Shown: piece by piece, positions 27,300 through 42,855 of the stretch | Numbering within the stretch: position 1 is the first letter of the stretch | Layout of the letters: each line of letters opens with the position of its first letter | Assembly: GCA_009909085.1 (NCBI GenBank) | Contig: JAAANX010000038.1 | Location: 1-45,692, forward strand | Direction of reading: 5' to 3' | Origin: Cyanobacteria bacterium GSL.Bin1 | GTDB taxonomy: Bacteria > Cyanobacteriota > Cyanobacteriia > Cyanobacteriales > Rubidibacteraceae | Length of the DNA stretch: 45,692 bases | Notes under the pieces: model-generated | Database searches by the model: none | The model's input: only the letters and a program-made list of their open reading frames with translations | What the model was told of the DNA's origin: nothing | Program-made: the position numbers and the translations under genes

Positions 27300-27453
27300 T
27301 CGTCTGTACAGATTTTTTAAAAAGAATTTTATTCTTTATCTTCTAGCATTTCCTAGAAAAATTTGTCAAAGATGAGCGCTTTAGGCAAGCGCCAATTTTG
27401 ATGATAGGATCTCATTTACATCACAATTTTAAATTCGTGTTAAAAGAGTCGAG

Positions 27454-28456
27454 ATGGCACAGACAATATTTTTCAATGCTTTACGGGAAGCGACTGATGA
27501 AGAAATGGCGCGAGATGATACCGTTTTTGTTCTCGGCGAAGATGTCGGTTCTCGGCGAAGATGTCGGTCATTATGGCGGATCCTATAAAGTGACGAAAGA
27601 CCTTTACAAAAAATATGGCGAGCTGCGTTTATTAGATACGCCGATTGCCGAAAATAGCTTTACAGGAATGGCAGTGGGCGCAGCAATGAGCGGGTTACGT
27701 CCTATTGTCGAAGGCATGAACATGGGCTTTTTACTGCTGGCGTTTAACCAAATTGCTAATAATGCCGGGATGTTGCGCTACACTTCCGGTGGTAATTTTA
27801 AAATCCCTCTGGTGATTCGCGGACCCGGTGGCGTCGGCCGCCAGTTGGGGGCTGAACACTCGCAACGGTTAGAGGCGTATTTTCAAGCGGTTCCCGGTCT
27901 AAAAATTGTGGCTTGTTCAACCGCATATAATGCGAAAGGATTGCTTAAAAGCGCGATTCGTGATAATAATCCTGTTCTTTTTTTTGAGCATGTCTTGCTC
28001 TATAACTTAAAAGAAGATTTACCCGAAGGAGAATATTGGCTGCCGTTAGATCAAGCAGAACTCGTTCGTCCGGGAAAAGATGTTACCATTCTCACTTACT
28101 CTCGAATGCGGCACCATGTTCTGCAAGCACTCAAACCTTTAGAAGAGCAAGGCTTCGATCCCGAAGTGATTGACTTAATTTCCCTCAAACCTCTCGACAT
28201 GGAAACGATTAGTGAGTCGGTGCGGAAAACCCATCGGGTGATTATTGTGGAAGAATGTATGAGAACCGGGGGCATTGGTGCCGAATTAACCGCTCGCATT
28301 AATGATGAATTGTTTGATGAACTGGATGCACCGGTGGTGCGTTTATCGTCTCAAGATATTCCCACCCCCTACAATGGAACCTTAGAACGCTATACCATTG
28401 TGCAGCCGCAAGACATTATTTCCGCTGTGGAAGACATGATGGCTTTGAAGGTGTAA
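27454..28456 (+). CDS. pdhB: Pyruvate dehydrogenase E1 beta, frame broken by 19-bp duplication
   Basis: This encodes the beta chain of the thiamine-diphosphate E1 component that turns pyruvate into acetyl units. From the ATG at 27454 the product reads [20 protein letters not shown] and FVLGEDVG, then shifts and stops at 27586-27588 after 44 residues. The rest ([17 protein letters not shown] onward, including [17 protein letters not shown]) is in another frame to 28456. A perfect 19-bp tandem duplication at 27529-27566 causes the shift. Without one copy the gene encodes exactly 327 aa, a normal length. A secondary ATG at 27542 could give a 304-aa shortened protein. Sequencing or assembly error must be considered. 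Confidence 0.88.
27529..27568 (+). repeat. Tandem 19-bp duplication inside pdhB
   Basis: GTTCTCGGCGAAGATGTCG occurs twice back to back (27529-27547, 27548-27566), with two more bases of periodicity. Adding 19 bases shifts the reading frame by one. Confidence 0.95.
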
Positions 28457-34525: not shown

Positions 34526-34529
34526 TTGA

Positions 34530-34578
34530 TTAGTCATTGGTCATTGGTCATTAGTCATTAGTCATTGGTCATTGGTCA
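34530..34578 (+). repeat. Heptamer array, seven units of TTRGTCA
   Basis: Seven units (TTAGTCA, TTGGTCA, TTGGTCA, TTAGTCA, TTAGTCA, TTGGTCA, TTGGTCA) stand directly downstream of glcF. They resemble the short tandem repeats known in cyanobacteria. The complementary array at 35568 is in the opposite orientation, with ilvN between them. Confidence 0.85.
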
Positions 34579-34702
34579 TCAAAGATTCACCTTGTCACCT
34601 TGTCTCCTTGTCTTTAGGGACTTGCCTGCAAACCGATTGCTTGTTCAAGTAGCGCTATCCCAAGGGCAAAGGACAAAGGACGAAAAACCAATGACAAATT
34701 GA

Positions 34703-35390: not shown

Positions 35391-35574
35391 TTAAGCCCGG
35401 AGAAAAGCACCAATGCCTTCGGCTTGCTGTAATTGTTCTCGGGCCTCTCCTTTCACTAATTCTCTCACTTAAGGTCGAGTGACGATCTGGGGTTTGTTCA
35501 ATTTCTTCTTGCAGCGATCGCAGCTGATTTTTGGCAACCGTCACAAAGCCCTGATTCAAGTAAGTAATGACCAA
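35391..35574 (-). pseudogene. Gene relic with frameshift between ilvN and hpf
   Basis: One frame reads NQGFVTVAKNQLRSLQEEIEQTP, which has protein-like composition and a HIP1 site. It then degrades. In a neighbouring frame, after one stop, it continues VRELVKGEAREQLQQAEGIG and AFLRA, again protein-like, up to the TAA at 35391-35393. Together these look like the end of a gene broken by at least one indel. The apparent start lies inside a heptamer repeat. The family is not recognised. The 372-base gap around it holds nothing else clear. Confidence 0.4.
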
Positions 35575-35609
35575 TGACCAATGACCAATGACTAATGACT
35601 AATGACTAA
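35568..35609 (-). repeat. Heptamer array, six units, inverted to 34530 array
   Basis: On plus it reads three TGACCAA then three TGACTAA, the reverse complement of TTGGTCA/TTAGTCA. The last unit overlaps the stop codon of the hpf gene (35606-35608). Confidence 0.85.
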
Positions 35610-35950
35610 TGCTGTTTGACCTCATTACGCTGGCGTTCCGTCAATTCCAGCAGTTGACGGCGGGCCGCTTTAAACGCATCTTTAATCAGAGGCTGCAACG
35701 CTTCGTATTGACGGTTTTTACCAGAATTTTTATCCACGGCGATTTCGTGACCCCGCTTAACGGTTAAGTCGATACGGACTCGATACGGGGAACCCGTTTC
35801 TGGGTTTTCATGTTCTTTTTCAATGGCAACCCGACAGCTATTGATATGGTCACAGACTTTTTCCAGTTTCTCGACTTGTTCTCGTACTAAAGTGTCAATC
35901 GTTTCGCTTTTGGTCAGGTTGCGGTGAGTAATTTCTAAAGGGAGTTCCAT
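35606..35950 (-). CDS. hpf: Short ribosome hibernation factor (HPF/RaiA family)
   Basis: A 114-aa protein with the HPF/RaiA fold: PLEITHRNLTKSETIDTLVREQVEKLEKVCDHINSC at the start, RVRIDLTVKRGHEIAV in the middle, and helix DAFKAARRQLLELTER. It would bind the 30S decoding region in stationary or dark conditions. It lacks the C-terminal dimerisation domain of long HPF (LrtA) that is usual in cyanobacteria, so it may be an additional short form. The stop codon lies in a repeat array. Confidence 0.8.
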   Translation of the reverse strand: MELPLEITHRNLTKSETIDTLVREQVEKLEKVCDHINSCRVAIEKEHENPETGSPYRVRIDLTVKRGHEIAVDKNSGKNRQYEALQPLIKDAFKAARRQLLELTERQRNEVKQH

Positions 35951-40150: not shown

Positions 40151-40684
40151 ATGATTGATATTAAAACTTTTTTTGAACAAAGTGAAGGCAAATGGTTTAC
40201 CCAACGGACTCAGTATAATCTGGCGCAAAACAAAGTCGAAAATGGTCAAGCTGAATTAACGGTCGAGTTATTGTCACTAGAAGATGGCGCGATCGCGGAT
40301 CTCTATGAACAAGTAGCTCGTCAACTGAGTGATCAAACCGCAACCGATTTATCTCATGGTGCTGGGGCAAGAATTAGTTGGGATGCTGATAGCCAAAAAG
40401 GCAGTAATTTAATTCTTTTGATTGCCGATGATACACAGCAACAGCAGGGAAAACTGATTCAAAAAACAATAAGTGGTGACTCTATTCCCACTGTCGGTCG
40501 CTTTACGCTTGGAGAAGATGAAGCCTTAACGCTATCTACCACTGCTCAAACAAACAGCATTATTAAAGAACGACTGTGGTTTGCTCATCCGAACTTACGC
40601 CTGCGCACGGTTTGGCAAGAAAATGAAACCGGACATCAAGGATGGGTTATGTTTTATTCTGAAATTCGCCGCATCACAAGTTAA
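40151..40684 (+). CDS. cpcS: CpcS/CpeS-type phycobiliprotein lyase
   Basis: A 177-aa lipocalin-like protein that attaches bilins to cysteine 84 of phycobiliprotein subunits. The start MIDIKTFFEQSEGKWFTQRT and the central GRFTLGEDEALTLSTTAQT followed by KERLWFAHPNLRLRT are family hallmarks. The acidic insert in the middle is variable in the family. The ATG at 40151 fits the family start better than a TTG at 40124. It lies 16 bases after the NblB-like gene. The 3' end overlaps a convergent gene by four bases. Confidence 0.9.
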   Translation: MIDIKTFFEQSEGKWFTQRTQYNLAQNKVENGQAELTVELLSLEDGAIADLYEQVARQLSDQTATDLSHGAGARISWDADSQKGSNLILLIADDTQQQQGKLIQKTISGDSIPTVGRFTLGEDEALTLSTTAQTNSIIKERLWFAHPNLRLRTVWQENETGHQGWVMFYSEIRRITS

Positions 40685-41163
40685 TTCGCTTCTGAATTGG
40701 CAACTGCTTTCAGTTTTGAGTAAACCTGAGATTGATCGAGTAAGGGGGTAAAGCGGTCAATACTCAAGGAAGGTTCACGTGCTTCTTCTTCATCTTCGAT
40801 GACGGTTTCTGCCTCCAATTCTTCTTCAATTTCTGGTTCCGGTTCAGATATGGGGGAAGAATTTCTTCCTCTGTTTTCAACTGCAATAGAAACTTCGCGT
40901 AATGCTTTCGGTAGTCGATGACAAATTAACTGTTCAAACTCGTGAGTAAAGTGAAACTTGGGTTGACCCCGATGTTCCCAAAGGTTGAGAATGTGCTCCA
41001 CCGAAATTGTTTTATATCGTCCTAAATAGAGGGCTTCGATAATGGCTAAGCGAATCCAAGAAGCATCATATTCCTCTAACCAACGTGCTGCCAAGGTTTG
41101 CGATGTTTCTCCATCAAGTTCAAAACCATAGTTTTCAATTAAAACTTCAATCAGCTGTTCCAT
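40681..41163 (-). CDS. Conserved-looking cyanobacterial protein of unknown function
   Basis: A 160-aa protein. The first 80 residues are helical (LIEVLIENYGFELDGETSQTLAARWLEEYDASWIRLAIIEALYLGRYKTISVEHILNLWEHRG) and resemble small helix-rich adaptor or DNA-associated domains. The rest has a Glu-rich acidic stretch (residues 108-130) and the short end LDQSQVYSKLKAVAN. I do not recognise the family. It converges on cpcS with overlapping stops. Confidence 0.65.
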   Translation of the reverse strand: MEQLIEVLIENYGFELDGETSQTLAARWLEEYDASWIRLAIIEALYLGRYKTISVEHILNLWEHRGQPKFHFTHEFEQLICHRLPKALREVSIAVENRGRNSSPISEPEPEIEEELEAETVIEDEEEAREPSLSIDRFTPLLDQSQVYSKLKAVANSEAN

Positions 41164-41210
41164 GACTACCCTAACCCAAGGAAGTAATAGTTTCTCGATC
41201 AGTATATCAG

Positions 41211-41242
41211 TAATAATACGTAACTGTAATAATACGTAACTG
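41211..41242. repeat. Perfect 16-bp tandem duplication
   Basis: TAATAATACGTAACTG occurs twice back to back (41211-41226, 41227-41242) in the 180-base gap upstream of the unknown minus-strand gene. Confidence 0.9.
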
Positions 41243-41343
41243 TTTTCGTTTGTTAGTATTTTATTTTACCTATTATACCTGTAGTTTACTGATCTCTCCC
41301 AAATTCATCAAGCGATATTCTTCACATGAGTCAATGATGCTTG

Positions 41344-42855
41344 CTAGAAGGTCACTGTCATCCTCATCGTACTAGTCAGAATATCAGCTTCTCTTCGATT
41401 TTGATTCGGATTGAGATGCCAAATAATTCCTGGGGTAAGCGTAACCTGGTCACTCACTTGCCACTTGTAAAAACCTTCTAAATGCCAAGGAATCTGATTT
41501 TCTATGCCAGATTGGTTTTCTAAATAACCCAGATAGGGTTGAGCACCGACAATAATTCCCCCTAAATTATCTGTATGACCCAAGTCTGGAAAAATGATTG
41601 AAACCGCATAATTCCAAATTTCTCCGTCACCTTCACCTAGCGCCTTCACATCTGTGTAGCCAAAGCGACCCCCAAAGGCGAGTTTAGAATTAGCTTGCCA
41701 AAACACTTCCATCCCGTAGGCATTAGTCACTGTGGGAAATTGGGCTAGAATATCATTCACGACTGCGGTCCCCACAATCGTCTCTCCTTCAGAAAGTCCA
41801 TCGCTAAAACCAAAGTCTCCTTCTTGAAAATAGCTATGGAGATAATTCACGCCAAAAGAAAGATTGTCGGTCGCCTTCCACTTTAAACGCAGCCCTGTAC
41901 TATAAGAACCATTCCCGAAGCCGGTTTCTGGATCCTGTGCATCTGAAGTATAGTATCCTACTCCTACGTGCAGGAGATCATGGAGATAATGAGAAATCGC
42001 AACGCCAGTTCCACCGCCTAAACTCAGAATGGGGTTGCGTTGAGCAAAGGTCGAAAGGGTTGTGGTTCCAGCGTTATCATCTTCCAAAAAGGGATTAACT
42101 GCAGGGGTATTATAATCTGCATGCTGTCCCCCTTTTGCCGTTAACAAGGTACGCGTATTCTCACTCAGTGGGAAGCGATAACTGAGCTTACTCAGAATTA
42201 GCGTGTTATCTGTGTTACCACGCCATTGCTGGGTTTGAGTTAGTTCACTGGTCCCATTGGCTAAATTAGGAGTGATGCTATTCCCAGCTGTCAAACGAGT
42301 GAGGAGTGAGTCGCGACCGGTAAAGCTCGTCTTAAAATCAAGGCGCGATCGCGCTTGCCCAACAATGCCTGTTTCTTCTCCACTTTGAGCACTATGGGTA
42401 ACCGCTAAATTCACCACGCCCTGTAATTTAGTGGTGGTTGAAAACTGAGTAATTTCTAACTCTCGCACGAGCGCTGTTACACCATCCACTCGCCCTCGCA
42501 AAATCGACAGTTCTCGTGCAAATTCTGTTTGTAGTCGCTGGATAATCGGTTGTTCTTCTAAGCGAATCTTAATCTCCAATTGACCAATACAATGATTGAG
42601 TAAAGCGGCAAATTCATAACGACTCACCGCCTGCTCACCGCGAAAAGTTTGATCCGGATATCCGGCAACACATTGGTATTGTCTTTGCAAGGCTTGTAAC
42701 GCAGAAAATGCCCAGTGGCTCGTCTCAATATCTTTTAAATCAGTAACAGGTATCACAGGTGGCGCTAGAGTGGAATTGGGTTGAGCTTGCGCCGTGGATA
42801 CCTTCACCATTAACGGAAGGGCGAGGGTGAGTAAAAGCAGAGGGTAACGGTACAT
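41344..42855 (-). CDS. SLH-domain porin (OprB/iron uptake porin type)
   Basis: A 503-aa outer-membrane protein. A signal peptide (to about residue 25, ending STAQAQ) is followed by one SLH domain (TSHWAFSALQALQRQYQCVAGYPDQTFRGEQAVSRYEFAALLNHCI, about 45-90), a coiled coil (about 95-130) and a beta barrel of alternating hydrophobic strands. The last residues end in Phe. The SLH domain would anchor it to peptidoglycan. Cyanobacterial relatives act as general or iron-related porins. It starts 317 bases from bchE, divergently. Confidence 0.92.
   Translation of the reverse strand: MYRYPLLLLTLALPLMVKVSTAQAQPNSTLAPPVIPVTDLKDIETSHWAFSALQALQRQYQCVAGYPDQTFRGEQAVSRYEFAALLNHCIGQLEIKIRLEEQPIIQRLQTEFARELSILRGRVDGVTALVRELEITQFSTTTKLQGVVNLAVTHSAQSGEETGIVGQARSRLDFKTSFTGRDSLLTRLTAGNSITPNLANGTSELTQTQQWRGNTDNTLILSKLSYRFPLSENTRTLLTAKGGQHADYNTPAVNPFLEDDNAGTTTLSTFAQRNPILSLGGGTGVAISHYLHDLLHVGVGYYTSDAQDPETGFGNGSYSTGLRLKWKATDNLSFGVNYLHSYFQEGDFGFSDGLSEGETIVGTAVVNDILAQFPTVTNAYGMEVFWQANSKLAFGGRFGYTDVKALGEGDGEIWNYAVSIIFPDLGHTDNLGGIIVGAQPYLGYLENQSGIENQIPWHLEGFYKWQVSDQVTLTPGIIWHLNPNQNRREADILTSTMRMTVTF

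Follow-up and report, generated by a model that had tools for sequence, protein, structure and literature searches.

The window analysed here is the whole of contig 38 (45,692 nucleotides) of a draft assembly that comprises 4.82 Mb in 210 contigs and is rated 100% complete. Inside its pdhB gene, a 19-bp unit, GTTCTCGGCGAAGATGTCG, stands in two back-to-back copies at 27529-27566, beginning 75 bases into the coding sequence (Table 1). The copies are perfect, as a sequence-only reading of this DNA had described them, and the full array at 27529-27568 comes to 2.1 copies with 100% matches and an edge homology of 2 bp. No further match to the unit with up to 3 mismatches was found elsewhere in the window, where 0 were expected from 100 shuffles. 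Alignment with seven relatives showed a single native stretch in each, with 1 base in 19 different between G001 and the unit in the window. Hence, the inserted letters repeat a stretch native to pdhB.

Translation from the family-type start runs into a stop after 44 codons, and the window's pdhB therefore holds no single open frame from this start through both transketolase-type domains. With one copy removed, the gene would encode 327 aa, which follows from the coordinates (1003 - 19 = 984 nt, or 327 codons and a stop). An ATG inside the first copy opens a frame of 304 aa, which scores 359.9 bits against NCBIfam NF006667 (PdhB, E1 beta) and lies above the curated cut-off of 321. Thus the identity of the gene, the early stop, the restored length and the internal start were all called correctly from the letters alone. 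The mechanical 352-aa frame from a TTG was absent from that earlier account. In the comparison with the PdhB family (pyruvate dehydrogenase E1 component subunit beta, NF006667 / PRK09212), 302 residues of the window's protein match relatives at 85-95%, whereas the extra 19 bp put the first 24 residues into a different frame.

Table 1. Positions of the duplications and reading frames. Coordinates without a contig handle refer to the window.
Feature	Position	Strand	Evidence and remarks
19-bp unit, copy 1	27529..27547	+	Tandem-repeat and motif search
19-bp unit, copy 2, identical to copy 1	27548..27566	+	Tandem-repeat and motif search; 27567-27568 are the unit's first two bases again
pdhB 5' part, family frame, 44 codons then TAA at 27586-27588	27454..27588	+	Frame translation; family-type start in 108/109 other-genome loci
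pdhB frame still open, 304 aa, ATG inside copy 1	27542..28456	+	NCBIfam PRK09212; Pfam Transket_pyr (only from profile position 25) and Transketolase_C
Mechanical 352-aa frame from TTG 27398, first 48 codons outside the PdhB frame	27398..28456	+	ORF list
Second two-copy array, 16-bp unit	41210..41243	none	Between listed ORFs 40681-41163 and 41344-42855
C23 duplication, 23 bp, GDSL hydrolase	C23:723-770 (L135)		Only first part with Pfam match, GDSL 1-80 of 178
C52 duplication, 47 bp, glycosyltransferase	C52:1400-1493 (L144)		Only first part with Pfam match, Glyco_tran_28_C
C82 duplication, 40 bp, ABC transporter	C82:2497-2577 (L218)		Both frames match one domain, ABC_tran 1-73 and 85-137

Matches to pdhB were obtained in 60 of 60 genomes searched. 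From 29 loci of this search and 80 of the 508 matches in a collection, 109 pdhB loci of other genomes were read; the two sets overlap, and they hold 103 distinct sequences. The 19-bp duplication occurred in 0 of these 109 loci, and repeats with units of 8-39 bp were likewise absent from this site in all 109, one locus (L026) having a 7-bp one. The family-type start was complete in 108 of the 109. The exception, G002 (locus L008), belongs to the same genus as the window's genome; there, a T run at about the sixth or seventh codon of pdhB is one base short and breaks the frame, and the first remaining in-frame ATG stands at about codon 18 in the family numbering. Loss of one T from a T run is a typical sequencing error. 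Moreover, no match to pyruvate:ferredoxin oxidoreductase (PFOR) was found in G002, so that a true loss of pdhB would leave this genome with neither enzyme. The frame break in G002 is probably a sequencing error, and it suggests that sequence errors do affect pdhB in public genomes.

These observations bear on the possibility that translation starts at the ATG at 27542 and yields a functional shorter PdhB of 304 aa. The frame is open and shows long-term purifying selection, and G002, which also has no intact family-start frame, would be a second member of the genus in need of an internal start. However, the Pfam match from position 25 and the solved E1 beta chains 3exe_B and 1w85_B, which align with the 304-aa protein from their residue 25, indicate that this form has lost about the first 24 residues of the pyrimidine-binding Transket_pyr domain, and both the start and the N-terminal segment are conserved in 108 of 109 loci. 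In addition, the ATG sits within the repeat, where no strong ribosome-binding site can be seen, and the break in G002 is of the kind that sequencing error typically leaves. We therefore consider a working shorter protein unlikely. A wider form of the same idea is that PdhB of this genus dispenses with its conserved N-terminus and family start. In two genomes out of six, the window's and G002, different lesions break the frame before the same point; internal initiation might restore both genes, as might slippage while they are expressed (the break of G002 lies in a T run), and only the window's genome would have PFOR in reserve. This wider form appears very improbable.

Downstream of the break, 302 of 302 codons align to relatives without a further lesion, and amino-acid identity to G001 is 95%. 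In comparisons with seven relatives, dN/dS of this part was 0.020-0.039, an average that is blind to a very recent loss of constraint. Low dN/dS and 302 lesion-free codons together mean that the break is recent or not real, and they rule out a long-standing pseudogene. The duplication is thus private and very recent, or it is not real.

Reversible slippage between one and two copies, which would turn the pyruvate dehydrogenase (PDH) complex on and off, is a further candidate explanation. As in tandem-repeat contingency loci of phase variation, the copy number of the pdhB repeat sets the frame; slippage or recombination could, in principle, remove a copy of a 19-bp repeat again, which changes the length and so shifts the frame. 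Variation of tandem-repeat copy number within populations has been reported elsewhere, for promoter repeats (PMC12817950). However, with the repeat in 0 of 109 other loci there is nothing that selection has maintained, no secondary structure beyond chance was found at the repeat (fold z-score 0.47), and PDH is a housekeeping enzyme. Known contingency loci carry repeat-rich tracts, quite unlike a mere pair of copies with 2-bp edges. A slippage switch at this site is accordingly a highly improbable reading.

The sequence-only reading had called for a search for an intact pdhB elsewhere in the genome. None was found in the 4.82-Mb assembly, either by DNA search, which matched only the locus itself, or by protein search. 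A weak protein match in C93 (29% identity, in a 651-aa frame) was rejected as a second pdhB and is probably a DXS-type enzyme. PDH E1 alpha has an intact gene in C102 (470.8 bits), and a full-length PFOR is encoded at C186:22270-25767 (1849.6 bits, no stops). Full-length PFOR was present in the window's genome and in G001, and searches of the four other genus genomes, one of them only 85% complete, gave none. The earlier statement that pdhB is normally essential was therefore too hard for this genome, since an intact PFOR softens the puzzle. It does not remove it: in Synechocystis, PDH could not be deleted although PFOR is present, while PFOR itself could be (PMC8887894). Hence, PFOR alone is no sure bypass.

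That the sequenced DNA truly carried a tandem duplication of very recent origin, inactivating the affected copy of the gene, is the second likeliest explanation, and we regard it as a serious possibility that falls short of the favoured one. Such an allele might occupy some of the chromosome copies, occur in a mixed culture, or be fixed with PFOR as a partial bypass. Cyanobacteria have many chromosome copies, so that a broken pdhB could persist beside intact ones. A fresh mutation would also look perfect, private and two-copy with 2 bp of edge homology, and the locus lies mid-way in a large contig. The intact PFOR fits this explanation, as does the intact E1 alpha gene, which is expected of a new lesion. 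On the other side, a fixed loss is unlikely given the Synechocystis result, no second allele shows in the assembly, and splits of this kind affect three other genes within about a quarter of the genome, which is many for fresh mutations.

The most likely reading, to which we would give roughly an even chance, is that the duplication is an error in the draft consensus or assembly and absent from the organism's working pdhB. The likely route would be a join of two sequence ends that shared about 19-21 bp, in which the shared stretch was kept from both ends instead of being merged, and would so appear twice. An error would leave the relatives' loci without the extra copy, as was observed, but a fresh mutation would do so equally. 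Support for an error also comes from the intact remainder of pdhB, the single pdhB in an assembly rated complete, and the other two-copy duplications that split genes; the repeated 19-mer described below and the frame break in G002 were also counted in its favour. Against it stands the position of pdhB in the middle of a 45.7-kb contig rather than in a small one.

Other duplications were surveyed in 80 stretches of the assembly (1,217,701 bases with 2,681 N, about a quarter of the genome), counting perfect tandem repeats with a unit of at least 12 bp. An array was flagged when its unit was not a multiple of three and omission of one copy opened a frame that reached 300 nt or more and gained at least 150 nt. 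This rule flagged three gene-splitting two-copy duplications, in contigs C23, C52 and C82. It missed pdhB because an overlapping frame was longer, and pdhB was added by eye. The extra 47 bp of C52 are absent from the G001 orthologue; a single copy among genus relatives was sought for the other two as well, with no relative found for C23 and only short matches for C82. In C82, the ABC transporter frame (L218:2513-4198) continues without a frame change into a segment that matches a DDE transposase domain, and given this transposase-like piece the gene may be a real pseudogene. Edge homology was 0-2 bp in all four duplications. Their unit lengths differ (19, 23, 40 and 47 bp), and thus no single assembler word length explains all of them.

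The same rule was applied to about 1.2 Mb of control sequence, of which a few kb are counted twice. It flagged 0 cases in G001 and 1 in G004 (400,000 bases each), 1 in 111,785 bases of the relatives' loci (29) and 0 in 305,630 bases of the collection loci (80). Both control cases were low-complexity, heptamer-like arrays and were dropped by eye. At equal lengths, the assembly and the controls therefore compare as 3 versus 2 by rule and as 4 versus 0 after hand curation; the latter reaches only about 0.06 (one-sided) with pdhB as the seed of the search, and the contrast is not significant. An excess of frame-splitting duplications over controls is hence suggestive at best. The contigs C23, C52 and C82 are all 4.5-6.3 kb long, a size class that makes up 5.4% of the sampled bases. 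Chance would give this concentration in small contigs with a probability of 0.00015 for the three others and 0.0006 for at least three of four with pdhB, at a 6.5-kb cut that was chosen post hoc; at a 20-kb cut, the values were 0.039 for the three others and 0.116 for all four. A genome-wide excess of tandem arrays was rejected, as the opposite was seen: perfect arrays with a unit of at least 12 bp number 17 per Mb in the sample of this genome, while two complete relatives have 43 and 170 per Mb.

The exact 19-mer of the pdhB duplication has one further occurrence in the genome, at C178:4768 (L176) in a TnpB-like gene, and the stretch shared by the two genes is exactly 19 bases. For a random 19-mer, such a match has chance odds of about 0.1-0.2%, as scaled from the share of window 19-mers that recur in a 570-kb sample, and the find was made post hoc. 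The repeated word could have misled an assembler join at pdhB. A general k-mer join artefact was ruled out, because the other three units have at most 13 bases in common with the rest of the sampled sequence.

The tandem duplication noticed earlier at 41211 had been taken as a sign that such duplications do occur in this genome. The array is real, but it lends little support to this view: it is intergenic and breaks no listed ORF, and arrays are rarer here than in the relatives. No further copy of its 17-mer with up to 1 mismatch was found in the genome. The window also contains, at 34529-34579 and 35565-35611, arrays of one 7-bp word (ATTGGTC or its reverse complement), about 1 kb apart and in opposite orientation. 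They resemble cyanobacterial heptamer repeats.

Compared with false tandem duplications made by assembly or consensus error, the pdhB case is similar in being perfect, two-copy, private and blind to frame, in a draft of 210 contigs with more cases in small contigs; it differs in that the locus is in a large contig. In our literature search, no description of such an artefact in bacterial drafts was found, and the string 'duplicat' occurs 0 times in the available part of PMC5596377. What was found on false duplications deals with the genomes of vertebrates (PMC9516828, PMC8081667). The options that the sequence-only reading had offered for the break were the right list. Among them, error and a recent or mixed allele are favoured, whereas the switch and the shorter protein are disfavoured by the 0 of 109 loci and by the other gene-splitting duplications here. 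All remaining explanations together carry almost no weight.

The duplication in pdhB looks more like a draft-genome error or a very recent stray mutation than like a working feature. If it is an error, it matters for annotation only: pdhB would be listed as broken or shortened, and a lost pathway may be inferred. Caution would then also be due for the frame-breaking duplications of C23, C52 and C82 in the same assembly. If it is real, it would provide a natural test of whether a cyanobacterium with PFOR tolerates a broken PDH complex.
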